Shown one piece after another: positions 27,777 through 40,362 of a stretch of DNA of 53,680 nt. Position 1 is the first letter of the stretch. Every line of letters starts with the position of its first letter. The DNA is from Prochloron sp. SulCav_FS08_3_32_3330 (GTDB lineage Bacteria; Cyanobacteriota; Cyanobacteriia; Cyanobacteriales; DYNF01): contig DYNF01000021.1 of NCBI GenBank assembly GCA_020721205.1, positions 1 through 53,680 of the forward strand, given 5' to 3'. A program made the position numbers and the translations under genes. The notes beneath the pieces are model-generated. The model did no database searches and was not told the DNA's origin. It worked only from the letters and a program-made list of their open reading frames with translations.

Positions 27777-28085
27777 ATGTCTAAAACTTCTTCAACAGGA
27801 AAAAAGCTTAAGGTTATTTCTTTAGAGCCTAAAGTTGTTATTGTTAACAACAATCAATCAGAAATTGAATCTAGTCAATCTGATGAAGATTCAGTAATTC
27901 TTGCCCCTTTTCTGCTCAATCAAGAGGATATGATTGAAGATTTAGGAGAATTAATTGATAAAGTTTATAATGAATTTAATCAAGCTTGTGAGAGTCGTAA
28001 TTTAACTTGGGAAGCAGAGCTTGAATTAGGAATGGAATTTGGTGTTAAATTTACGGCAAAATTAAAAATAGCACCTAAACAATAA
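27777..28085 (+). CDS. Small acidic protein, possibly Trypco-like
   Basis: 102 residues. A Ser/Asp-rich N-terminus (to about residue 45) and a C-terminal region DMIEDLGELIDKVYNEFNQA ... WEAELELGMEFGVKFTAKLKI. The last part loosely recalls the CU044_2847/Trypco1-type domains that accompany peptidases, an uncertain resemblance. It is 38 bp after the protease gene and ends before a strong bidirectional terminator. Confidence 0.6.
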   Translation: MSKTSSTGKKLKVISLEPKVVIVNNNQSEIESSQSDEDSVILAPFLLNQEDMIEDLGELIDKVYNEFNQACESRNLTWEAELELGMEFGVKFTAKLKIAPKQ

Positions 28086-28106
28086 AATATTATCTAAAAG
28101 TAACTA

Positions 28107-28139
28107 AAAAGTCGGGGATTTTCAAAATCCCCGACTTTT
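28107..28139. terminator. Bidirectional intrinsic terminator
   Basis: AAAAGTCGGGGATTTT, one base, then its perfect complement ending in TTTT. It sits exactly between the two convergent transcription units at 28085 and 28146. A decayed relative is at 51938-51972. Confidence 0.88.
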
Positions 28140-28145
28140 AATTAA

Positions 28146-30020
28146 TTATTGTAATTTTAAATGTTTAATTTCTTTTTCACTAATTACATATAAACCTTGA
28201 TCTCCTAATAATAACTGACAGTTACTATCTACAAAAGATTCTGTATCAGTGAAAATTTTAGTTTGAATAATTTGATTATTTTGTACTTCTATTCTCACAA
28301 TACCTTCATCCGTAGCTATTAAGAGAAAATTATTAACAGCACAATGACCATAGAGAGAAGTTAACCAATCTTTTTCGCCAAAAATTGCTTCTAAATTAGC
28401 TAAAATTTGACCATTTTTATTAATTACAAAAACTCTTTGAATAATATTACCTTGAACTTGAGAATTAATCAATAACCAAGCATATTGATCCCTTAAAATA
28501 CAATTAATTTCTATAATTTGACCTGATAAAATCGGTAATTTTATTTGATCATTAATACCCGGTCTTTGTAAGTCAAAAATAAAAGCAATATTCAGATTTC
28601 CCGCTCGATAAAAACCAAAACCAAAATGCTCTCCTAACCAAAATTGAGTTTGATTTTGTAGCACATCTCCGATATATTCTTGACCTAATTTTCCCTCTTT
28701 TAAAAGTTGTCCATTATGACAGAAATAAGCTTGATTATGATTAGTTTGTAATATCGGTAAATTTTCATAAGTATCTACTAATTTTTTAGTAATATCTCCA
28801 TTTTTACTAAAGATAATTACTTGATTTTGTTGTCCAATTAATGTATCATTTTCTTTTAGCCAAAATTTCATTTGTTGGTTTAAATTTCCTGTAAAAATTA
28901 CTCTTTGATCTTCTCGTTTAAATTGTCCTTTTTCGTGATATAAATAAGTTAATTTATTACTATTATTCGTAACTAAAATTACCCCTTCAGTTTTAAAAAT
29001 TGAAGTTACAGTTACACTTCCTTTCACAAAAATAGGCGTAACTTTTGTTAATTGAGGTTTAATTTGAGTACATTGAGGACAAGTTAATCTAGCGTGTTCA
29101 AAACCACAATTTAAACATTTTGTCCATCTTAAATTTTGTAATAAATTAACAGGAATTTCTCCTCTTTGATCTTCTAAAAATTGACGATGAAATTGTTGTA
29201 ATAAATCATCGGGTAAAACATGATAAGGAATAGCAGGTTTAGGATATTTTACTTCAGGATTAAAGATAGTTATGCGATGTAAAGGTCTAGCAATATGGGG
29301 AATATTTTTACCTTGATTTTTTGGTTTATAAACGCCTCCGTAGGGATTAACAAATAATAAACATTGCATTAACATTACATGATAAGCATACCAATCGGAA
29401 TTTTTGTTATGATTCTTAATTAAAATTGGTGAATTTTCTAAAGGATCACATAATAAAGGATCAACAAAACGACTGGTAAATACTTGACAATAAAAATTAT
29501 TAAATTGAAAAGAATCAGCATCAATAAAATAGGCTTTTTCTGCTTGATTTACTAACACATTTAAGTCGTTAAAATCCCCAATTATTACTTGACTTTCATG
29601 TACTTTTGTGATAGTATTATATAAGTCAAGAAAAATATTAATAATACTTTGTTGATTAATTCCACTTTGAGTGCGAAAATTGCGATCACTATACTTTAAT
29701 AAAGGGTTAGTTTGACTTAATAAAGGCATCGTATAACCTAAAATAAATTGACCTTTTTTATCAGTAGCTAACTCTTGAGGGGTAATAACATTAGGGGGTA
29801 AAGATTGAGGAAAATTTTTTAATTTTATTTGATGTTCTTTTAATCTTGTTTCGGCGGCTTTTGCTTCAAAAGGTAAACCTTGATAATCAGGATGATCGGG
29901 CTGTTTAAACACTTTAACAGCGAGGTTATTTCCTAAGTCAAAAACCTCCGCTTCTCCTCCTTTGCCGATAGATTTTTGAGGGGAAAGTTTAATTTTTTTT
30001 CTATTAACATAAATGTCCAT
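28146..30020 (-). CDS. Kinase-like, zinc-ribbon and propeller-like protein
   Basis: 624 residues. The N-terminus is a protein-kinase fold of the YegI type: IGKGGEAEVFDLGNNLAVKVF (glycine loop and Lys), a catalytic loop IIGDFNDLNVLV with Asp and Asn but no HRD His-Arg, and YFIDADSF in place of DFG. Residues about 300-325 form a zinc ribbon (CLNCGFEHARLTCPQC). The remaining 300 residues are beta-rich repeats (FGFYRAGNLNIAF, QYAWLLINSQVQG), probably a beta-propeller. Such kinases often sit beside von Willebrand and PP2C genes; here none is adjacent. Activity uncertain because of the altered loop. Confidence 0.75.
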   Translation of the reverse strand: MDIYVNRKKIKLSPQKSIGKGGEAEVFDLGNNLAVKVFKQPDHPDYQGLPFEAKAAETRLKEHQIKLKNFPQSLPPNVITPQELATDKKGQFILGYTMPLLSQTNPLLKYSDRNFRTQSGINQQSIINIFLDLYNTITKVHESQVIIGDFNDLNVLVNQAEKAYFIDADSFQFNNFYCQVFTSRFVDPLLCDPLENSPILIKNHNKNSDWYAYHVMLMQCLLFVNPYGGVYKPKNQGKNIPHIARPLHRITIFNPEVKYPKPAIPYHVLPDDLLQQFHRQFLEDQRGEIPVNLLQNLRWTKCLNCGFEHARLTCPQCTQIKPQLTKVTPIFVKGSVTVTSIFKTEGVILVTNNSNKLTYLYHEKGQFKREDQRVIFTGNLNQQMKFWLKENDTLIGQQNQVIIFSKNGDITKKLVDTYENLPILQTNHNQAYFCHNGQLLKEGKLGQEYIGDVLQNQTQFWLGEHFGFGFYRAGNLNIAFIFDLQRPGINDQIKLPILSGQIIEINCILRDQYAWLLINSQVQGNIIQRVFVINKNGQILANLEAIFGEKDWLTSLYGHCAVNNFLLIATDEGIVRIEVQNNQIIQTKIFTDTESFVDSNCQLLLGDQGLYVISEKEIKHLKLQ

Positions 30021-30040
30021 TTTTTTACCTCTTTATTTTT

Positions 30041-30132
30041 CAACGGGTTAAAACCCGTGAAGACGGGTTTTGTTTATGTAGCAACGGGTTTAAACCCGTT
30101 GCTAAAATCTACTAAAATCTACTAAAATCTAT
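30041..30132. repeat. CAACGGGTTTAAACCCGTTG repeats plus AAAATCTACT triplicate
   Basis: Two GGGTT(T)AAACCC palindromes (30041-30056, 30081-30102) joined by AGACGGGTTTTGTTTATGTA, the same family as 21397-21472. Then three tandem AAAATCTACT 10-mers (30103-30132) run up to the polA stop codon. Confidence 0.75.
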
Positions 30133-33027
30133 TTATTTCGCCTCCATCCAATTATTTCCGGCGTGAATATCTACCACTAAAGGAATAGATAAAGTAACCG
30201 CATTTTCCATCGTTTCTTTAATTTTTATTTGCAAAATTTCCCATTCCTCTACAGGGATTTCAAAGATTAATTCATCATGGACTTGTAATAATAATTTAGC
30301 TTGAAAATCTTGCAATATTTGATCAATTTTGATCATTGCTATTTTAATTATATCCGCACTAGATCCCTGAATAGGAGCATTTGCCGCTCCTCTTAATAGT
30401 TGAATATCGTTATAATTATCTTTAATTTTATCTAAATTAATCTCAGAAATTGGTTTATTTCTTAACTGTTTAATTGTCTCACTTTCAAAGTTTAAATAAC
30501 GTCTTCTCCCTAATATTGTCTCCACAAAACCTTGAGAAATTGCCTGTTTTTTTACCGTTTCTAAATATTCAAAAACTTTAGAGTAACGCTGACGATATTT
30601 TTCAATAAATTCCTTCCCCTGTGGCGCAGAAACTCCTGCTTCTCTCGCAAATCTTTGCGCTCCCATGCCATAAATTACACCAAAATTAATAATTTTTCCT
30701 AAACGTCTTTCTTCTGAAGAAATATCCTCTTTTTCAAAGATTAATTTAGCGGTAACTTTATGCACATCTAAATTATTTTGATAAGCTTCTAATAAGACAG
30801 GCTCTTGACTTAAATGAGTTAAAATTCTTAACTCAATTTGAGAATAATCAGCAGATACTAATAAGCAATTTTCAGCAGGAATAAATGCTTTACGAATTTG
30901 TCTGGAAAACTCGGTACGAATAGGAATATTTTGTAAATTAGGATCGCTAGATGATAGTCGCCCCGTAGTTGTTAGAGTTTGATTAAAGTTAGTATGAACT
31001 CGTTTTGTATCTTTTCTCACTAACAAAGGTAAGGCATCAATATAGGTTGATTTTAACTTAGCAAGAGTACGATATTCTAAAATTTTATCAATAATGGGAT
31101 GATCTCCTTGTAACTTTTCTAAAATTGCATGATTAGTGGAATAACCTGTTTTAGTTTTCTTAGTTTTTCTCTTATCTAAACCTAATTTTTCAAAGAGAAT
31201 TTCCCCTAGTTGTTTAGGTGAAGCAATGTTAAAATTTTCCCCAGCATCTTCATAAGTATGGGTTTCAATTTTGTTTAATTCTATTTCTAATTGTTGCGAT
31301 AATTGCTTAAGATAATTAATATCAATACTAATCCCTATTTGTTCCATTTTAGCTAAAACTGGCTCTAAAGGTTGTTCCACTTCTAACAAAAGTTTTTCTA
31401 AAGTGGGAATTTCTTTTAATTTTGCTTGTAATTTTTCTGCTAATAAGAAAGTACCATACACATCCATGCCACAATAATCAGCAACGGTAGAAATATCTAA
31501 ATTAGCAATCGTTTTACCTTTCGGAATACCTAAATCTTTATAACTTAGGGAAATTATATCTCCTAAATATTTATAACATAAATCTGTTAAGTTATGTTTA
31601 CCTTCAGGATCCAGTAAATAACTAGCTAACATGGTATCAAAAACTACGCCTTTTAAGTTAATACCTTGATTGAGAAAAATTAGACGATCAAATTTTGCAT
31701 TTTGAAAAACTTTAGGATAATTTTCGCTTTCTAAAATGGGGGCTAATTTTGTTAAAATTTCCTCTTGTTTTAAGTAAATTCCTGATGTATGATACACCGG
31801 AATATAAGCCAGATCGGTAATATTTTCACCCCAACAACAACCGATTCCCACTAATTTTACATCCCTTGGCTCTAAACCAGTTGTTTCCGTATCCCAAGCC
31901 ACATTAATATTAGTAAATGTCTTAAGTTTGTTAACTAATAGCTCTAATTTTTCTGTAGTATCAATAATTTCTGGTTTTATGGGAATTTCTGTATAAAAAT
32001 TGGCTGTAATATTCCCAGAATTATCTACATTATCAAATAAAGATAATTGAGTATTACCTGCTAAATTTGTTTCAGATTTAACAATTGTTTCTTCCACTTC
32101 AATATTAACAGTTTCTCCTCCCAATTTTTCCTGTACTTTAGCAATCTCTTTGAGAAATTTATTTAATTCTAATTCTGCTAAAACTGGTTTAATAATATCT
32201 AAATTAAAACCTTGTAATTTTAAAGTTTCTATCTCCATCTCTAAAGGCATATCTGTAATAATTTTGGCTAACATTTGAGAATGTAAAGCATCAGTTTTAC
32301 CTGCTTCCAATTTCTTTTTAATTGCTCCTTTAATCTGATCAATATTTTGATAAACTTTCTCTAAACTTTCATATTCTTGTAATAATTTAACCGCCGTTTT
32401 TTCCCCGATTCCTAACACTCCCGGAATATTATCAGACTTATCACCACATAAGGCTTTATAATCTATAACTTGATGAGGTTTAATCCCTAAAGTTTCCTCA
32501 ACTTTTGCTGGATTAAATTCCGTAATTCCTAATTTTGAAGTGCTTTTAACCGCATTTTTATCTAAATATAAAACCTCAATTTTTTCATCTTCTGTTACTA
32601 ATTGAAATAAATCCCGATCGCCGCTTACAATTTTCACATTATAACCCTTTTCACTACCTTTTATTGCTAAAGTACCTAAAATATCATCAGCTTCAAAACC
32701 TTGATAAGTTATCACGGGTAAATTAAAGGTTTTTAATAACTCTTGAAGATTGATAATATCCACAATAAAATCCTCTGGAGTTTCCTTACGATTTGCCTTA
32801 TAATTAACATCAGATTCATGGCGAAAAGTAGGGGCAGAAGTATCAAAAGCAATAGCGATCGCCGTAGGATTATAGTTATTAATTACGCTAAATAAAGAAT
32901 TTAAAAAACCAAAACAAACGCTAGTAGGAATACCTTTTGAAGTGCGTAAAGGATTTTTAATAAAAGCATAATAAGCACGAAAAGCGAGAGAATGACCGTC
33001 AATTAATAGTAAAGTAGAATTATTCAT
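30133..33027 (-). CDS. polA: DNA polymerase I
   Basis: 964 residues from ATG 33027 (MNNSTLLLIDGHSLAFRAYY); an open frame continues 36 codons upstream but lacks family similarity and runs into a repeat. Domains: 5' nuclease (1-290, LLIDGH, DRDLFQLV, GDKSDNIPG), 3'-5' exonuclease (about 360-540) with WDTETTGLE, NAKFDRL and YCGMD, so the proofreading residues look intact, and family A polymerase (about 590-964) with SADYSQIELRIL, RLGKIINFGVIYGMGA and LLQVHDELIFE. It fills gaps and removes RNA primers. Confidence 0.97.
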   Translation of the reverse strand: MNNSTLLLIDGHSLAFRAYYAFIKNPLRTSKGIPTSVCFGFLNSLFSVINNYNPTAIAIAFDTSAPTFRHESDVNYKANRKETPEDFIVDIINLQELLKTFNLPVITYQGFEADDILGTLAIKGSEKGYNVKIVSGDRDLFQLVTEDEKIEVLYLDKNAVKSTSKLGITEFNPAKVEETLGIKPHQVIDYKALCGDKSDNIPGVLGIGEKTAVKLLQEYESLEKVYQNIDQIKGAIKKKLEAGKTDALHSQMLAKIITDMPLEMEIETLKLQGFNLDIIKPVLAELELNKFLKEIAKVQEKLGGETVNIEVEETIVKSETNLAGNTQLSLFDNVDNSGNITANFYTEIPIKPEIIDTTEKLELLVNKLKTFTNINVAWDTETTGLEPRDVKLVGIGCCWGENITDLAYIPVYHTSGIYLKQEEILTKLAPILESENYPKVFQNAKFDRLIFLNQGINLKGVVFDTMLASYLLDPEGKHNLTDLCYKYLGDIISLSYKDLGIPKGKTIANLDISTVADYCGMDVYGTFLLAEKLQAKLKEIPTLEKLLLEVEQPLEPVLAKMEQIGISIDINYLKQLSQQLEIELNKIETHTYEDAGENFNIASPKQLGEILFEKLGLDKRKTKKTKTGYSTNHAILEKLQGDHPIIDKILEYRTLAKLKSTYIDALPLLVRKDTKRVHTNFNQTLTTTGRLSSSDPNLQNIPIRTEFSRQIRKAFIPAENCLLVSADYSQIELRILTHLSQEPVLLEAYQNNLDVHKVTAKLIFEKEDISSEERRLGKIINFGVIYGMGAQRFAREAGVSAPQGKEFIEKYRQRYSKVFEYLETVKKQAISQGFVETILGRRRYLNFESETIKQLRNKPISEINLDKIKDNYNDIQLLRGAANAPIQGSSADIIKIAMIKIDQILQDFQAKLLLQVHDELIFEIPVEEWEILQIKIKETMENAVTLSIPLVVDIHAGNNWMEAK

Positions 33028-33064
33028 TAATTTAAGATAAAAATATACTAAAATATTGTAGAGT

Positions 33065-33117
33065 GGGCAAGGGCTATCATAATCTTTTGATAAAAATCTA
33101 AGATTTTTTCTTGCCCC
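33065..33117. repeat. GGGCAAG...CTTGCCC inverted-repeat element upstream of polA
   Basis: 7-bp arms at 33065-33071 and 33111-33117 around an interior hairpin AATCTTTTGAT/ATCTAAGATT. Same family as 20052-20116 and 26837-26902. It lies in the polA leader and so may affect its expression. Confidence 0.6.
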
Positions 33118-33259
33118 TGCCTTAATTATAACCATTTACTTTATTTCAAATAAAAAAATAAAAAAAGTTAAATATTTTTGTTATTTTTTATTTAAAAGTT
33201 AAAAGAATGTTATTTTTATGATACACTATAATTAGAAATATTACAATTATTAAGTAAGT

Positions 33260-33766
33260 ATGAAAAAGATATCATCTAAGCGTCAAAAAGTCAAATTATT
33301 ATTAACAATAATTTTTGAAATTTGTTTTTTCCTGTTGCCATTTTGGGCAATAATTTGTCTTCCTAGTGAAGCCATCCCTTTAACATCAAAAATAGAGCAT
33401 ATTAATCAAGAAAACTTACAAAAAAATATTGAAAATTATCTAACTTCAATGCCCAATAATTATTACACAATTTGGACAATGGAAACTCTAAAAAATACAG
33501 ATGATTTATTAATTATTGATGTGAGAAAACCATCGGAATATAAAACAGGACATATTCCTAAAGCACTCAATATTCCTCTTAATTCTTTGACTAAAAATAT
33601 CGCTAAAATTCCTAAAGATATTCCTGTAATTTTATATTGTTCTACGGGTTATCGCTCTGCAATGGGGGTAATGGCTTTACAAATGTTAGGATACAGCAAT
33701 GTTAGAGGTTTTCCCCCTAGTCTGAAAGGTTGGGAAGAAGCCGGAGAAATATTAGAAGTTAACTAA
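33260..33766 (+). CDS. Exported or membrane-anchored rhodanese-domain protein
   Basis: 168 residues. A basic N-terminus plus a strong hydrophobic stretch (about 14-38) forms a signal peptide or anchor. The rhodanese domain (about 68-165) has LLIIDVRKPSEYKTGHIPKALNIPL and the active-site loop YCSTGYRSAMG with Cys about 131, then GFPPSLKGWEEAG. A single catalytic domain, so probably a sulfur carrier or redox-sensing role outside the cytosol. TATAAT at 33227-33232 is a plausible -10 but lacks a clear -35. Confidence 0.88.
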   Translation: MKKISSKRQKVKLLLTIIFEICFFLLPFWAIICLPSEAIPLTSKIEHINQENLQKNIENYLTSMPNNYYTIWTMETLKNTDDLLIIDVRKPSEYKTGHIPKALNIPLNSLTKNIAKIPKDIPVILYCSTGYRSAMGVMALQMLGYSNVRGFPPSLKGWEEAGEILEVN

Positions 33767-33902
33767 ATCAGAACAAAAAAAGAAGGTTTGTAGTTGGGCT
33801 TCGGTTTCCCTATATAGGGCTAAAGCCCAACTACGAACTTTAAAATGTAAACTTTTGTAACAAAAATGATCCATAAATGAGAAAAGATATTATATTTATA
33901 AA

Positions 33903-34187
33903 TAAGGCACAAGGGAGTACAGAAACCTCTCACACCGGAAGGGATTAGAGTTTGTGCCACCCGCTCGAAGTCCGCCCAATGTTTTCTTAACTAAATACAC
34001 CAATCAATAAAGATAGTTACCTGTGTATATGGTACTATAATCAACGCCTGAGTCGGCATATTGATGTTTGAAATACGAGAAAATTTTGTGGTCATCTTAT
34101 CCTAAGTTATTTTTGTTTACAAATTTTTTTTCAGGAGTCCAAATTAATCACTTGTTTATTCCTTGACCTGTCCCCTCGGACGGGTCT
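33903..34187 (+). ncRNA. Candidate structured non-coding RNA
   Basis: A GC-rich, hairpin-bearing stretch in an otherwise AT-rich spacer downstream of both neighbouring genes, so not a leader of either. It follows an AT-rich TATATTTATAAAT box (33891-33903) and ends in a 9-bp hairpin with a 4-nt loop followed by a weak T-rich tail. I could not match it to tmRNA, RNase P RNA, SRP RNA or 6S RNA by their usual motifs. The CTCTCACACCGG segment faintly recalls the CUCACACC core of cyanobacterial Yfr1 RNA, but the match is not good enough to name. Strand is uncertain. Confidence 0.35.
34165..34186 (+). terminator. Hairpin, possible terminator
   Basis: GACCTGTCC-CCTC-GGACGGGTC, 9 bp with one G-U pair, followed by TATTGTCGTTT. 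A stable stem with a poor U-tract; it could end the candidate RNA or the minus-strand flavoprotein transcript. Confidence 0.5.
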
Positions 34188-34219
34188 ATTGTCGTTTATA
34201 ATAGTTTAGGTATAATAGT

Positions 34220-35560
34220 TTAGGTATTAGTTAGTTGATTAAAGTTAATTTTTTTCTGCATTGCTAAAGCAAAAAGATTAATTAATTGATCTGCATTTTC
34301 GCCAATAATATGTACTCCTAAAATAGTTTGATTTTTACTTAAAATTATTTTTAAATAATCAATAGTTTTACTGGTTAATCTATTAAGTATATTTGTATTA
34401 TATTCTTCAATAATAATTGAATTTTGATCATAAACTTTTGCTTGTTTTTCAGTTAAACCCACTCTAGCACAATTAGGATAATTTAGAATTTGATAGGGTA
34501 AATAATTATAATTAATTTTAGTAGAAAAAATCGAATTAGATTTAATATTTTTAATCGAAATTTTTGCTTCCTCTCGACTAATATTAAAATTATTATAACC
34601 ACCAATAACGCTACCACAAGCATAAATATTATGATTAGTAGTTTGTAATTTTTGATTAACGATAAGTCCTTGATTATTATAATCTACTTTGACACCTTCT
34701 AAATTTAATTCTTGAAAATTAGGGCTAGATTTTCCCATATAAATAATATCATTAATTTCGGTCGCTTGATCTCCCGCTTGAATCCAGATTTGTTGAGCAA
34801 TTTTTTTAATTTGAGTAATCTTACTATGGGTAATAATGTAAATCCCTTTTGCCTCTAACATTGCTTGAATATAATTAGAAATACTAACATCTTCATAAGG
34901 TAAAATAGTTTGATCTGGATAAATTAAAGTAATTTCTTTCCCTAAAATTGCTAAACTATAAGCTAATTCTATTCCTGTAGTATCTTCAGTAAAAATTGTA
35001 ATTTTATCAGAAAGAGAAATTAATTTTTCTTGATTAAATAAATCGGTTAAAGTTAAATAAGAAAAACTATTAAAATCTTCTAAATTTGGTAAACGATAAT
35101 AACTACCCGTAGCAATTAAATATTTTTTAGCAAATAACTGTCTAGTTTCCGTCATAAAACCAAGCTTAGGAAGTTTACAAAAATCCCCATTTTCCTGAAT
35201 TATATCAACTCCTAACGCCCCTAAAATAGCTAAAGAATATTCATTTTCTATACTAATAATCTGCTCTTTTATATAGGCTAAAATTTGACTATATTCAGGG
35301 ATTAAAGTAAAATTTTCCTTTGCGTCTTTGCGTCTTTGCGAGAAATTTTCAGAAAAATTAAAACCTATTTCACCATCTTTTTCAAAATCATTTTTAATCT
35401 TAGCAAAATAGCTTAACCCCTGATTAAAAACGCTCTGATTGTAAGCTAAATTCGATTTAAACGGCAATTCTACCAGTGCAACCCGATAATTGAGGTTAAC
35501 TGCCTTTCTCGCCGCATATCGCCCTTCTAAACCGTTACTAATAATTACCAGATCATACAT
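34220..35560 (-). CDS. FAD/NAD-linked disulfide-reductase family protein lacking redox cysteines
   Basis: 446 residues. N-terminal FAD-binding fold (YDLVIISNGLEGRYAARKA), a second Rossmann motif region (ITIFTEDTTGIELAYSLAIL), the GNADL-like NHNIYACGSVIGG segment binding FAD, and a dimerisation domain (about 340-446). The CxxxxC redox pair expected near residues 40-50 in glutathione or dihydrolipoamide reductases is absent (YNQSVFNQGLSYF is there instead). The C-terminal His-Glu pair is also missing, though GVHIIGENADQLI is present. An in-frame FSQRRKDAKE insertion (35319-35342) follows. It probably acts as an NAD(P)H oxidase or quinone reductase rather than a thiol reductase. Confidence 0.82.
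   Translation of the reverse strand: MYDLVIISNGLEGRYAARKAVNLNYRVALVELPFKSNLAYNQSVFNQGLSYFAKIKNDFEKDGEIGFNFSENFSQRRKDAKENFTLIPEYSQILAYIKEQIISIENEYSLAILGALGVDIIQENGDFCKLPKLGFMTETRQLFAKKYLIATGSYYRLPNLEDFNSFSYLTLTDLFNQEKLISLSDKITIFTEDTTGIELAYSLAILGKEITLIYPDQTILPYEDVSISNYIQAMLEAKGIYIITHSKITQIKKIAQQIWIQAGDQATEINDIIYMGKSSPNFQELNLEGVKVDYNNQGLIVNQKLQTTNHNIYACGSVIGGYNNFNISREEAKISIKNIKSNSIFSTKINYNYLPYQILNYPNCARVGLTEKQAKVYDQNSIIIEEYNTNILNRLTSKTIDYLKIILSKNQTILGVHIIGENADQLINLFALAMQKKINFNQLTNT
35319..35342 (-). repeat. In-frame GCAAAGACGCAAAGACGC repeat
   Basis: On the minus strand, CGCAAAGACGCAAAGACGCA is translated as SQRRKDAKE inside the flavoprotein at residues 74-81. This tandem 9-mer is a widespread intergenic repeat in cyanobacteria; here it lies inside a gene without breaking the frame. 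Confidence 0.75.
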
Positions 35561-35565
35561 AAATA

Positions 35566-35594
35566 GGTTCGTTGTGGTGCTAAAAGCACCACAA
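35566..35594. repeat. Palindromic dispersed repeat
   Basis: GGTTCGTTGTGGTGCTAAAAGCACCACAA, a short member with stem GTGGTGCT/AGCACCAC, between the flavoprotein and cobD-like genes. Confidence 0.75.
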
Positions 35595-35621
35595 ATTTAG
35601 TAAAGATGGAGTTAAAACAAT

Positions 35622-36722
35622 TTAGATTAACAAATTTAAAGCATTTAATAATTTATTATTCTCATCTTCAAGTTTAACAGCTATTCTAAAATAATGCTCC
35701 CCTAATTCGGGAAAACTTAAACAATCTCTAATTAAAATTTGATAATTTTTTAACAATTTTTCTTGTAATTTTAAACTAGAAATATCTGTTTTTACTAATA
35801 AAAAATTAGCACTACTATTAAAAGGATATAACCCTTTAATTTTCCCCAATTCTTGATATAATTTTAACCTAGTTGGGGGCAACCATTTTAAAGTTTTTTC
35901 TCGAAATTCTTGATCCTTAATTACTGTTTGTGCTACTAAATCCGCTAATATATTTACACTCCAAGGATCCCGCCACTTTTGCCATTTTTTAAGGCGATCG
36001 GGCTGAGTAATAGCGTAGCCTATTCTTAGCCCCGGAATAGCGTAAAATTTCGTCAGCGATCGCAAAATAATTAAATTAGGATAATCTTTAACTAAAGAAA
36101 TTAAACTTTGATCTTGATCCGGTGGTAAAAAATCCATAAAAGCCTCATCTATTACTACCAAAGCAAATTGATCTAAATATTTCTTAATTTCTTCTTTTTT
36201 AAATAATTTACCCGTTGGATTATGAGGATTATTGAGTAAGAAACCCGAATTATTTTTGAAATTACATTGAGTAAAACTAGCAGGTAAATCCCTCAAAAAC
36301 TCCCCCCTTTTGAAGGGGGGCAGGGAGGGATCAAAATCTATTAAAAAACCCTGAATTTTCCCATGAAAAGCCTCCAAAGCTCTGATATAATCATGAAAAG
36401 CCGGAGTTAAAAGATATGTAACCTCCGTATTCGCCAATTCCCTCCCCACATAACTCAATAACTCCGCCGAGCCATTTCCGGGTAAAATATAATCAGGATT
36501 AATCTGATGATACTGAGCTAAAATATTTCTAAGGTTTGTATAGCTTGGATCAGGATAATTACTCAGTTGAGTTAAATTATTTTGAATCGTAGCGATCGCA
36601 CTTTTAGGAATACCGAGAGGATTAATACTAGCGGAAAAATCTAAAATAGAGGAAATTGGACAACAGGCGATCGCCGTTGCCCAACTTAAATTTCCGCCAT
36701 GAATAGGACGAATTTTAGTCAC
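35622..36722 (-). CDS. cobD: Threonine-phosphate decarboxylase-like aminotransferase (CobD/HisC family)
   Basis: 366 residues, fold-type I PLP enzyme. HGGNLSWATAIACCPISSILDFSASINPLG is the CobD-type start (HisC lacks HGGN). PGNGSAELL, NNPHNPTG, the DEAF strand and the PLP Lys in SLTKFYAIPGLRIGY (K225) are present. CobD decarboxylates threonine phosphate to the aminopropanol arm of cobamides; cyanobacteria mostly make pseudocobalamin. Residues 131-141 (DPSLPPFKRGE) are an in-frame repeat insertion. HisC-type activity cannot be ruled out. It is 15 bp downstream of the HU gene. Confidence 0.85.
   Translation of the reverse strand: MTKIRPIHGGNLSWATAIACCPISSILDFSASINPLGIPKSAIATIQNNLTQLSNYPDPSYTNLRNILAQYHQINPDYILPGNGSAELLSYVGRELANTEVTYLLTPAFHDYIRALEAFHGKIQGFLIDFDPSLPPFKRGEFLRDLPASFTQCNFKNNSGFLLNNPHNPTGKLFKKEEIKKYLDQFALVVIDEAFMDFLPPDQDQSLISLVKDYPNLIILRSLTKFYAIPGLRIGYAITQPDRLKKWQKWRDPWSVNILADLVAQTVIKDQEFREKTLKWLPPTRLKLYQELGKIKGLYPFNSSANFLLVKTDISSLKLQEKLLKNYQILIRDCLSFPELGEHYFRIAVKLEDENNKLLNALNLLI
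36301..36332 (-). repeat. In-frame DPSLPPFKRGE-coding repeat
   Basis: CCCCCC...GGGGGG hairpin with the reading DPSLPPFKRGE inside the cobD-like gene. It is a relative of 10334-10366. Confidence 0.78.
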
Positions 36723-36737
36723 CCTCCTAAATTAAAC

Positions 36738-37019
36738 CTAATCTTGAGGGGCAACTTTTTCCTTAAACAATTTACCCGCCGAAAAAGCGGGTACAGTAGT
36801 CGCCGGAATTTCCATTTTATCGCCAGTTTTAGGATTACGTCCTTCTCGTGCCTTGCGATCTCGGGGTTCAAAAGTACCAAAGCCCACTAAGGTAACTTTT
36901 TCACCATCGGCTAAGGTTTCCATAATCGTATCTACAGTTGCCGTCACAATTTGTTCAGCCGCTTTTTTGGTGACACCTGCTTTTTTGGCAACCTGATCAA
37001 CTAATTCTCCTTTATTCAT
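36738..37019 (-). CDS. hup: Nucleoid protein HU
   Basis: 93 residues. MNKGELVDQVAKKAGVTKKAAEQIV, then VTLVGFGTFEPRDRKAREGRNPKTGDKMEIPAT and FSAGKLFKEKV, a full HU/IHF family pattern including the conserved RNPKTG in the DNA-binding arm. AAAGGAG lies about 9 nt before the ATG. HU bends and compacts DNA. The 317-bp upstream region has AT-rich promoter-like sequence but no clear operator. Confidence 0.97.
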   Translation of the reverse strand: MNKGELVDQVAKKAGVTKKAAEQIVTATVDTIMETLADGEKVTLVGFGTFEPRDRKAREGRNPKTGDKMEIPATTVPAFSAGKLFKEKVAPQD

Positions 37020-37285
37020 TTTCTGAATCTCCTTTTTAGATTTTCTGTAATGTTTTAATTTATAAACTATCTATTAGTATATGTAAAGTTTTATTGTCGA
37101 AATACCTATACAATCATAGTTTACCACATTTATTCTAATCTTTATTTGTTCAATCTGGATCAATTAAATAATTAAATTTATCTTACTTTAATAAACTTGA
37201 GAAAAAAAAATTTGTTTAGTGTGACGAATGATAACAGTTAAAAAGCTTGTTATAAAAGGAATACAGCCTTGATAAAAAATATCGG

Positions 37286-37315
37286 TGTAGAGACGTAATA
37301 TATTACGTCTCTACA
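37286..37315. terminator. 30-nt perfect palindrome
   Basis: TGTAGAGACGTAATA followed by its exact reverse complement. It lies 21 bp after the pilQ stop, in the right place for a terminator of the pil operon, but with no T-run. TGTAGAGACG palindromes are common dispersed repeats in cyanobacteria. Confidence 0.6.
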
Positions 37316-37336
37316 AGTGAAATAGGATCACATTAA

Positions 37337-39463
37337 TTAAAAATTAGGAGTAGGAACATAAAAACCCCGATCCTCTAACATTCCACGAGCATCCTCTCCG
37401 GGGACATAATTATAACCCCATCCAGCCTGTTCCGAATCATCTAAAATTTGAGGAGTAACTAAGACAATAACCTCATTTCTTTGATAAGTGGTGCTAGAAC
37501 TTCTGAATAAAGCCCCTAAAATGGGAATATCTCCTAAAATTGGCACTTTTGTCACAGAAGCACGATCAGATTCCTGAATAATCCCTGCTAAAATCAATGT
37601 TTGACCATCCCGCATCCGAATAGAGCCAGACTCAAGAGTTCTTGACTGAATCAGAGTAATAGGACCTTGATTCGTTGCCACTTCATTGCCGGGTGCCGAA
37701 ACGATAGGTTTTACTTGTAAAGTGATAAAACCATTATCATCAATCCCTTCTACAATAATTCCCAATTGAAGTCCTGCTTCTTTAATAATGGGTCTTTGAA
37801 TAGGAGTCGAAATCTCATTAATGTCAATATATTGTATTTCAAACCCTCCAAATACCTCTTGAGTCAAGTTAATACTCGCAGTTTGTCCCGACTGGATCAC
37901 TAGAGTGGGATCAGTCAAGATTTTAGCACTACCATTAGTAATTTGAGTATCAAGGGAAGCGAGAAATTTAGTCGGATATTGAATATAATTAGCTAAAGAA
38001 GTGGTAATAGAACCGGGGGTACCGAGGGAGGTAGAAATAGTAGGGGGTGCCGTGGCACTGGTAGTCGTAGTAATAACCGTATCCGTTGCTTGTGTTATAT
38101 CGGTAATACCCACACTAAAAGGATCAGTGCCAATAGCCGTAGTGGGAACGAAAAAAGTGCCATCACTTCTGGGAGTATAACCAGTTAAAACACCATTAAG
38201 AAACTGTTGAGTTCCAGGGGCTGTAGAAGGAACGGTGAAAAAGTTAGTAGGGTCTAAAAAAATAGTAGCATCAGATAATTGGTTAGCGACAATGGGGGGA
38301 CTTACTCCTAGATTAGAGGAGGCAGTAGCAGGGGACAAATTCCCGTAATTTGTCGAAAAAGTTCCATTATTAACTGAAAAGAAATTATTAGCAATACCGA
38401 AGGAAAAACTGGTGTTAACACTTTCAGTATTGAGTAAGTTTACATCTACAATTTTCACATTAACAGCCACTTGTCTTTGACGGGCATCTAACTGAACTAA
38501 AAACTTACTGGCAATTTCAATTTGACGAGGTTCACCCACTAAAGTAATCGCATTAAGTCGAGGCTCCGCTATCACTTGCATTCCTGTTAGTAATGGCTCA
38601 CGCCCAATCGTACCTCCTACTTCTCCTGTAAGGAAAATTTGAGCGTCTTCTGCTTTGACTTGATTTAAACGAAAACTTCGTGTCACTAGATCCCTTGCCT
38701 GTACAGGAAGTGCCGCTCCAATAAAAATAGTACGTCCTCGACGAGTTGCCTGTAAACCAGACACAATTAAAACCGAATTGAATACATCCTGTACCGATTC
38801 ATTTTCTAAATCTAAGGTAATATTTGAGCTTGTTGCCCCTGCTGCTGTTCCCTCGGCGGCGGCGTTGGTATAAACCACATTTAGATCCGCCGCACGAGCC
38901 AATAAACTTAATACTTCTTGAACAGGAGCTTCCCTTAAAACTAATCTTGGTACTCTTGCCGCCGTACCTAAATCCACATATTCGGGGGAAGAATCAATAT
39001 TAGAAACGGCTATATCTCCCACGGGAGGAGCTACGGCTCTGGGGAGGAAAGGGGGAGCCGGGGCTACGGGTTGAATCGGGTTAGCAGTGGGGGCAGGTCT
39101 ACCATCAATGGTAATAGTAGGATTAGGAAAAAGAATCTCCGGTTGAGGTGGCGGATTATTAGTAGGATTTGTTGGTTGATCAGGGGTACTTTGAGCTATT
39201 ATAGCCGGAATAGATAGATTATTATTTTCTATAATATCTGTTTGTTCTCCCAAATTTAAGGTAATATTTGTATTGTTTTCTGCTGATATTTCCTGAGAAA
39301 ATAAATTATTTTCTTCAGTTTCTATCGAGATTTGAGAAATATTCTCATTAGACTCTATTTCCTCCCCTGTTAGGGCAAGGGTACTAGCTAAAGTGGGATT
39401 GACTACGGATAAAACAGTAGCAACCACCGTTAAAAAATGGAGCGGATTTTGATGATGTTTCAC
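37337..39463 (-). CDS. pilQ: Type IV pilus secretin PilQ
   Basis: About 708 residues from the GTG at 39463, chosen because GAGGAG sits 6 nt before it. N-terminal signal-like segment (FLTVVATVLSVVNPTLAS), Pro-rich linker (about 95-155), secretin N domains (about 175-330: PRLVLREAPVQEVLSLLAR, FRLNQVKAEDAQIFLTG, RLNAITLVG), a Thr-rich insertion (about 450-500) and the secretin barrel with LQVKPIVSAPG, RMRDGQTLILAGII, VPILGDIPILGALFRS and EVIVLVTPQI. It forms the outer-membrane pore for pili used in twitching and DNA uptake. Last gene of pilMNOQ. Confidence 0.95.
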   Translation of the reverse strand: MKHHQNPLHFLTVVATVLSVVNPTLASTLALTGEEIESNENISQISIETEENNLFSQEISAENNTNITLNLGEQTDIIENNNLSIPAIIAQSTPDQPTNPTNNPPPQPEILFPNPTITIDGRPAPTANPIQPVAPAPPFLPRAVAPPVGDIAVSNIDSSPEYVDLGTAARVPRLVLREAPVQEVLSLLARAADLNVVYTNAAAEGTAAGATSSNITLDLENESVQDVFNSVLIVSGLQATRRGRTIFIGAALPVQARDLVTRSFRLNQVKAEDAQIFLTGEVGGTIGREPLLTGMQVIAEPRLNAITLVGEPRQIEIASKFLVQLDARQRQVAVNVKIVDVNLLNTESVNTSFSFGIANNFFSVNNGTFSTNYGNLSPATASSNLGVSPPIVANQLSDATIFLDPTNFFTVPSTAPGTQQFLNGVLTGYTPRSDGTFFVPTTAIGTDPFSVGITDITQATDTVITTTTSATAPPTISTSLGTPGSITTSLANYIQYPTKFLASLDTQITNGSAKILTDPTLVIQSGQTASINLTQEVFGGFEIQYIDINEISTPIQRPIIKEAGLQLGIIVEGIDDNGFITLQVKPIVSAPGNEVATNQGPITLIQSRTLESGSIRMRDGQTLILAGIIQESDRASVTKVPILGDIPILGALFRSSSTTYQRNEVIVLVTPQILDDSEQAGWGYNYVPGEDARGMLEDRGFYVPTPNF

Positions 39464-39648
39464 GAGAGACTCCTCAACCAAATAAGATGTTATTTATTTA
39501 AAAATAAAAAAATTTGTAATTAGTAAATCAAAGAAAAAATTAATAAACTCTAATGGATCAAAATCACCAGATGTAAATTAATCTTACTGTAAATTGTCCA
39601 TTCGGGATCATTAAATCAAGATAGGTACAAGTTAAGCTTGAAAATAAA

Positions 39649-40362
39649 TTAAGGCTCCTCTGAAGAAATGGGATAAACCACATCCACATCAAAAGAAACA
39701 TCCAAAATCGGCGCTCCTTGAAGTTTGATTTCCCCTTTATTAAACACAAAAGTGGGGGGAGTAGAGACCTTAGCATTAAAATTTTTAATTACCACAAGGG
39801 ATTGGAATCTTTCCAGTCTCTGAATAATAGACTGAGTTTGAGTGATTGTTCCCTCAAAACCAATAGCAATAGTACGACGTTGTAGTTTACCATTAACTAA
39901 TTCCCCAAAAGAGCCATCGTCAACTACTAACAGAGGTTCTCCATTCGGTCCAGAAACGGGTTCATATTTTGTTAAAATCACCTTTTCCTGTTGAAAAATT
40001 TTATTGAAATCAAGCAATAAAGTATCCACCGTTTTACTTGAGGATAATAACGCCAAAATTTGAGGTTGACGATTTTGTTGTTGGGCGATCTGAGCTTGAA
40101 GCTGAACAATTTTTTGTTGAGCATTCCCCACTTTAGTTTGAGCTAATTTAGCCGCAGTTTCCTCCTTTTTCTGTTCTAAACCTTGATACTCTTTATAAGC
40201 GGGTAAAACCTTCGCCCAAGTGAGATAACCTCCTCCTCCAATACCTACTACTAACAACAGAATAAATATTACCTTGGGTGAAAAAGTAATCCCAAAAGCG
40301 GCGGGGTATTCACCACCATCTTCCGGGTTGTTACCGGGTGTAAAATCTTCGGCGATGGTCAT
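39649..40362 (-). CDS. pilO: Type IV pilus assembly protein PilO
   Basis: 237 residues. One membrane helix (about 28-50, KVIFILLLVVGIGGGGYLTW), a coiled coil (about 55-100) and a C-terminal ferredoxin-like domain (LLLDFNKIFQQEKVILTKYEP ... RTIAIGFEGTITQTQSIIQRLERFQSLVVIKNF). PilO pairs with PilN in the inner-membrane alignment subcomplex. The start overlaps the pilN stop by 4 nt (ATGA). A Pro-rich N-terminus faces the cytosol. Confidence 0.93.
   Translation of the reverse strand: MTIAEDFTPGNNPEDGGEYPAAFGITFSPKVIFILLLVVGIGGGGYLTWAKVLPAYKEYQGLEQKKEETAAKLAQTKVGNAQQKIVQLQAQIAQQQNRQPQILALLSSSKTVDTLLLDFNKIFQQEKVILTKYEPVSGPNGEPLLVVDDGSFGELVNGKLQRRTIAIGFEGTITQTQSIIQRLERFQSLVVIKNFNAKVSTPPTFVFNKGEIKLQGAPILDVSFDVDVVYPISSEEP

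Follow-up and report, generated by a model that had tools for sequence, protein, structure and literature searches.

Comparison of homologous loci places positions 33905-34192 of the plus strand in a family of free-standing structured RNA genes that is widespread in cyanobacteria. The window referred to throughout is a stretch of 53,680 nucleotides from Prochloron sp. SulCav_FS08_3_32_3330 (contig DYNF01000021.1). There is very little doubt that the feature is a real, functional RNA, and as far as Rfam and the literature show, the family and its architecture are new; its mode of action may prove ordinary. Our best guess, to which we give a probability of roughly 0.6, is an RpaB-linked RNA that acts in trans in light acclimation.

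The locus and its conserved architecture

A preliminary description of the window had placed a structured RNA between two 3' ends, and this is indeed the arrangement: the feature is flanked by a rhodanese gene (33260-33766, +) and a pyridine nucleotide-disulphide oxidoreductase gene (34220-35560, -). It had also been called a GC-richer island, and G+C in 60-nt steps agrees, at 47, 38 and 40% over 33900-34079 and 42% over 34140-34199, with a dip to 25% over 34080-34139 inside the feature. Most of the surrounding steps lie at 12-33%; higher values occur over 33660-33839 (35-45%) and in two further steps (37%).

The stems do not stand out by folding energy, and the case for an RNA therefore rests on comparison. 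The energy of the feature is indistinguishable from chance on the plus strand (z -0.87, with 14 of 100 shuffles as good), and on the minus strand z is -0.36 (37 of 100 shuffles as good). When fold energy is ranked given G+C, the six 100-nt windows starting at 33901-34151 come 142nd to 1020th of 1072. The conserved fold is not the computed minimum either: it comes to -45.4 against -63.1 kcal/mol (without the pseudoknot), and to -59.8 kcal/mol with just its helices enforced. Directly after the rhodanese stop lies a 19-bp (89%) inverted repeat at 33783-33841, and when fold energy is ranked in the same way, the 100-nt window containing it comes 4th of 1072; the repeat is possibly the rhodanese terminator or a repeat element.

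The anatomy that is conserved consists of a 5' H-type pseudoknot, the long-range stem P2 enclosing P3 and P4, unpaired stretches and a 3' hairpin (Table 1). Most of the stems drawn in the preliminary description recur in it: the perfect 7-bp outer stem is present as P1, the GCC/GGC hairpin is found at 34046-34048/34055-34057, and the 9-bp end hairpin, with one G.U on the plus strand, pairs 34165-34173 with 34178-34186. The CCGGAAGG-capped hairpin did not hold up, being a mere 2 bp in the computed fold and a linker in the conserved structure, in which the inner hairpin is instead the GGGAG/CUCUC pairing. For the adopted helices 56 pairs were chosen in the window, which are standard pairs by choice. 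The unpaired stretches AGGAGUCCA (in the window and in genomes of another cyanobacterial family, f8) and ACCUUA are conserved in part of the RNA family.

Table 1. Parts of the element in the window
Feature	Position	Strand	Basis or remark
HLR1-type direct repeat AATGTAAACTTTTGTAAC	33844-33861	+	RpaB-site consensus matched perfectly, antisense orientation; degenerate form about 60 nt upstream of many homologues
Probable -10 box TATATT	33891-33896	+	Family-wide pattern TGnTAnnnT
Structured RNA, probably non-coding; predicted start and end	33905-34192	+	Homologue searches, profile, models R1 and R2
P1: GGCACAA 33906-33912 with UUGUGCC 33952-33958	33906-33958	+	Covariation, partner swaps
P1a hairpin: GGGAG 33913-33917 with CUCUC 33927-33931	33913-33931	+	Covariation, partner swaps
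Pseudoknot helix: 33942-33951 with 33963-33973, enclosing the P1 3' strand	33942-33973	+	Covariation, swaps; outside model R2
P2 long-range stem: 33977-33987 with 34078-34088	33977-34088	+	Helix scan, covariation, swaps
P3: AUAGU-U-ACC 34013-34021 with GGU-ACUAU 34031-34038	34013-34038	+	Helix scan, covariation
P4: conserved AAUCAACGCCUGAGUCGGC element (34039-34057); GCC/GGC plus AUCAA/UUGAU	34039-34065	+	Alignment, covariation
Conserved unpaired AGGAGUCCA	34133-34141	+	Alignment
P5 terminal 9-bp hairpin, possible transcription terminator; no T run after it	34165-34186	+	Helix scan, covariation

Homologues, distribution and covariation

When the window copy was compared by blastn with 100 relatives, weak matches only were found besides the window (best E 0.003). 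The view that the element is unique to the window was rejected because two of these weak matches, L009 (genome G094) and L019 (G010), are true homologues. In blastn over 388 genomes of the order, two boxes, one at the 5' end and one in the middle, matched in f8, where the five loci that were read hold one co-linear element of about 330-350 nt; a search of f8 with one f8 copy gave a single match in each of 34 of 50 genomes. All 31 copies tried, 30 of them fetched and the other that of the window, align along almost the whole of an iterated profile, the window scoring 150.8 bits with an aligned region of 304 nt and an RNA of 288 nt between its predicted ends.

Two covariance models extend this distribution. 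Model R1, built on the 3' half, matches 59 of the 388 genomes at E<=0.1, and in 20 further R1 loci (E up to 0.03) the 5'-domain profile was placed upstream in 18, weakly so in L126 (E 0.037) and L137 (E 0.25); L134 and L136 gave no placement. Model R2, built on the 5' domain, matches 195 of the 388 genomes and 89 of 149 genera at E<=0.01; 184 of the 195 genomes have just one match each. Phylum-wide, R2 matches 69 of 386 genomes. Of these, 60 belong to the same order, one being the window's own genome, and 7 to other orders of the class, where three reach E below 1e-11; the 2 from outside the class are weak partial matches that we distrust. Both of these large searches ran stricter filters that lose weak matches, and a missing match is not proof of absence. 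Among 49 loci fetched for other reasons, R2 gave three matches at E<=0.01, namely two true homologues and L011 (20.1 bits, E 0.002). Because the L011 match lies in apparent coding DNA, chance may account for some of the lowest-scoring among the 195 genome matches; with E<=0.01 for each, about 4 would nominally be expected, although the E-values are rough. The plasmid and phage collections that were searched gave no match to the RNA. In genome G043, one contig (C376, locus L205, about 2243-3318 in contig coordinates) carries three tandem copies of the RNA gene some 500 nt apart with similar upstream regions, and a fourth match lies on a separate contig.

The alignments were composed as follows. 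A2 holds 26 of the 31 copies (L086, L087, L089, L090 and L091 were omitted as near-duplicates), and the 25 copies of A3 additionally omit L081, a decayed copy in G191. A4 has 34 rows; L064, L065, L066, L068, L070, L084 and L085 were dropped as well to thin close relatives, and the 20 later R1 loci enter without L129, L134, L136 and L139 (genus already represented, or decayed). A5 comprises 100 chosen loci and excludes L081, L134, L136, L139 and several near-duplicates; all were known carriers, and the match rate of 100 of 100 is therefore by selection.

An unguided scan for covarying helices in A2 (26 full-length sequences) ranked P2 first, P3 third and P5 sixth, with the remaining three of the six best helices being other pairings, outside the adopted structure. 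In the same 26 sequences the whole proposed structure pairs in 83.9% of cells, against 34-44% when the partners are slid, and its covariation is 0.222 against 0.169 shuffled, a value that none of 500 shuffles reaches. On four of five measures no shuffle of the 500 does as well as the structure; the fifth, the number of further pair types (53), does not favour it, since 438 of 500 shuffles are as high. The larger sample of A5 aligned to R2 (99 distinct sequences) gives 86.1% paired cells for P1, P1a and the pseudoknot against 29-51% slid, covariation of 0.296 against 0.179 shuffled, and 187 double-change cells against 80 shuffled; here no shuffle of 500 reaches any of the five measures. P1 occurs as GGCAC/GUGCC, GGUAC/GUACC, GACAC/GUGUC and once GAUAC/GUAUC. 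The pseudoknot helix, which changes on both sides in 9 of its 11 pairs, is absent from the R2 search model and so was not favoured by the alignment. Its outer pairs have many non-standard cells in A5 (56 and 52 of 98, and 40 of 99 at columns 80/113), which we think arise partly from one-base alignment shifts.

A test that is independent of column alignment compares the duplex energies of each sequence's own two strands with those of swapped partners (5000 swaps), in sequences below 80% identity taken from the 100; for P2, those with the TNNACMYTW motif were used. The values are -871 against -627 (sd 19) for the pseudoknot and -685 against -528 (sd 16) for P1, each with 76 sequences, -320 against -204 (sd 11) for P1a with 63, and -622 against -429 (sd 19) for P2 with 47, and in every case none of the 5000 swaps reaches the observed value. 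Shared ancestry inflates such tests, though in our judgement not by ten standard deviations in four helices. The TNNACMYTW motif is present in 47 of the 76 sequences, whereas 200 shuffles average 14 and never exceed 25; it was not found in the window. G.U cells outnumber A.C cells (179:96 and 122:88), which favours an RNA from the plus strand. A chance fold is rejected, since the feature is lifted above chance by its conservation and covariation. The preliminary description had named a lack of conservation in relatives, together with the lack of a transcript, as refuting its reading; conservation proved strong and is accompanied by covariation, which supports the reading of a structured RNA.

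Predicted promoter, neighbours and possible function

Just upstream of the RNA lies a possible -10 box, at which relatives show an extended -10 pattern, and we infer that the RNA is transcribed from its own predicted promoter. About 45-60 nt upstream there is a tandem repeat, which in the window matches perfectly the HLR1 consensus of RpaB given in PMC11633204, (G/T)TTACA(T/A)(T/A)NN(G/T)TTACA(T/A)(T/A). With one mismatch allowed, the window contains 2 HLR1 matches (the second having one mismatch) against 0.68 expected by shuffling. Over 76 diverse upstream regions the best match has on average 3.47 mismatches, compared with 5.14 for shuffles and 4.91 when the orientation is reversed, and in 29 of these regions its start lies at -59 to -61; mismatches number 0 in 1 region, 1 in 3, 2 in 15 and 3-6 in 57. 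Because the HLR1 match is perfect in the window only, what is conserved is the repeat, and we infer from it the RpaB site. We lean slightly towards an RNA that is linked to RpaB. RpaB sites lying some 50-100 nt upstream are reported to activate in low light (PMC11633204), and the low-light behaviour that we predict for the RNA follows from this position rule.

Gene neighbourhoods were compared across 60 loci whose flanks are long. On the downstream side 48 of them have a convergent gene, 11 a gene on the same strand and 1 none; on the upstream side the counts are 38 for a same-strand gene, 21 for a divergent one and 1 for none. The flanking genes vary from lineage to lineage. In 10 of the 60 loci polA adjoins the RNA, pointing away from it, and in the window polA is one gene further off, with the rhodanese gene between, an arrangement that supports orthology. 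A scan of the genome's contigs for the neighbouring oxidoreductase found one distant locus. Because the downstream gene is mostly convergent and the neighbours vary, the RNA is probably trans-acting. Where the upstream gene is on the same strand (38 of 60), the RNA could conceivably originate by read-through or as a 3' UTR. More generally, the feature might be a cis element of a neighbouring gene, whether leader, attenuator, terminator or part of a 3' UTR, as the terminator-like end hairpin, the loci with a same-strand gene downstream (11 of 60) or upstream, and the adjacency of polA would allow. The prevailing convergence of the downstream gene, the RNA's own -10 pattern and upstream repeat, the outward orientation of polA and the turnover of neighbours by lineage make this very improbable; the convergence likewise disfavours a leader role, in line with the preliminary description, which had called the feature not a leader of any gene.

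Some further features of the locus may be recorded here. The polA open reading frame as listed starts at 33135; counted from the methionine at 33027, residue 5 is already the first of the Pfam 5'-3' exonuclease domain, and the longer start is therefore probably wrong. An inverted repeat, GGGCAAG...CTTGCCC, was seen by eye upstream of polA (33065-33116). A 34-aa reading frame that runs from 34095 down to 33991 on the other strand was weighed as a possible leader peptide and rejected, since the longest closed ATG reading frames on either strand of 100 homologues have a median of 24 codons with stop (maximum 81).

On the reading that we prefer, a non-coding RNA would be transcribed from its own promoter, and since that promoter carries an RpaB-type (HLR1) repeat, the level of the RNA would follow light or redox state. 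The RNA would act in trans: its conserved unpaired stretches would base-pair with mRNAs, and the molecule itself would be protected by its pseudoknot and terminator. The conserved unpaired stretches (AGGAGUCCA, TNNACMYTW) suggest pairing sites, and the elaborate fold suggests a protein partner; base-pairing is the most likely mode, with the balance between the two about even. A protein-binding RNA in the manner of 6S RNA (a scaffold, decoy or RNP core) in place of a base-pairing regulator is thus a substantial, if somewhat less probable, alternative. It would account for a long, pseudoknotted RNA whose fold is kept better than its sequence and which gives a single match in nearly all matching genomes, whereas the sequence conservation of short unpaired stretches (AGGAGUCCA, ACCUUA), seen in some members of the family, is what one expects of pairing sites. 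A bolder and rather doubtful extension is a class-wide ribonucleoprotein RNA that predates the order, is under the control of the photosynthetic redox regulator RpaB and binds a conserved protein partner through its pseudoknotted core. If true, a core component of light acclimation would have been missed until now, because the RNA keeps its fold but lets its sequence drift. The RNA of a selfish or mobile element is the least probable reading of all: the tandem copies in G043 and the varied genomic positions would suit it, but the usual single match per genome and the conserved upstream region would not, and no transposase or reverse transcriptase was recognised by eye among the shared flanking families listed.

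A possible link to photosynthesis was followed in reduced genomes. The window's own genome has PSII reaction-centre genes, and in genus g88 of f8 the three genomes with PSII genes (G168, G330 and G333) carry copies of 150-166 bits by R1, whereas the reduced genomes G181, G191, G229 and G251 give 36-93 bits by R1 and no R2 match. Their RNA copies are eroded (L139, L081, L134 and L136, respectively); G181 has a broken PSII gene fragment, and a search for PSII genes at E<=1e-10 found none in the other three. The small genomes G274 and G286 show neither a PSII match nor an RNA match, and in G270 a PSII fragment occurs without any match to R1 or R2. Presence of the RNA does not track photosynthesis strictly, because neither model matches G309, G035 or G058, although these have PSII genes. 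The decay pattern fits a dispensable function that belongs to free-living phototrophs, but it may also be general gene loss, as erosion in symbionts would look alike.

Comparison with known RNAs

A pseudoknotted RNA with matches in half of the sampled genomes of an order, and in other orders too, represents a large gap in the catalogue, and light acclimation would gain an RNA branch should the RpaB link prove right. Start-site data have been published for Nodularia spumigena CCY9414, the apparent source of genome G297, in which a homologue lies at 2989120 (+), so that its transcription could be looked up directly.

The Rfam search proposed in the preliminary description was run with Rfam 15 (4227 models) and gave no match at the gathering threshold in the window or in 14 homologous loci, and none at E<=0.5 in three further divergent ones; permissive settings returned 8 sub-threshold matches to implausible families in the window region. 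A known housekeeping RNA is accordingly rejected for want of a gathering-score match. A CRISPR tracrRNA, a retron or an IscB/TnpB guide RNA was also dismissed, with no Rfam match and no such genes seen by eye among the reading frames of 28000-40000. The literature that was searched contained nothing identifiable as this RNA, although an unnamed entry may sit in the supplementary tables of transcriptome studies (PMC3610870, PMC4734099, PMC5386190).

The length class, which resembles that of several housekeeping RNAs, would suit a diverged member of some known family, such as 6S, RNase P, tmRNA, SRP or a cyanobacterial RNA already described, but the Rfam results make this highly unlikely. Like 6S RNA (RF00013, ssaA), the RNA is structured, of the same broad size class and matched once in this genome; the 6S model does not match it, however, and the sole match of that model in the genome at E<=10 lies elsewhere (C132:4534-4720, 88.5 bits). 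Similarly, the Nodularia homologue lies apart from all six RNAs in Table 3 of PMC3610870 (ssrA, ssaA, ffs, rnpB, yfr2 and nsiR3). Yfr1 and Yfr2 are broadly conserved cyanobacterial RNAs like this one, but the lengths do not fit: Yfr1 is described as 54-57 nt with the motif CACUCCUCACACC, and Yfr2 members in Synechocystis as 65-80 nt. Weinberg 2010 (PMC2864571) predicted structured RNAs in cyanobacteria or cyanophage and tabulated their Rfam accessions. Cyano-1, Cyano-2, psaA, PhotoRC-I, PhotoRC-II, psbNH, glnA and Downstream-peptide are not among the Rfam matches here, and several of the motifs in that study are leaders of protein genes, unlike this free-standing RNA.

PsrR1 (SyR1) comes closest. 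Its gene in Synechocystis is described in the fabF-hoxH spacer, and the RNA is reported as RpaB-linked and 131 nt long (PMC6202907); the RNA described here is set apart from it by size and place, with about 290-350 nt and a pseudoknot. No fabF was recognised by eye beside locus L122, which is presumed to be Synechocystis-like, and the neighbours in G007 are NspC-like and CbiO-like genes (labels by eye). Both are nevertheless intergenic cyanobacterial RNA genes, one RpaB-linked and the other with an HLR1-type repeat, and by this analogy PsrR1 is the nearest functional parallel.
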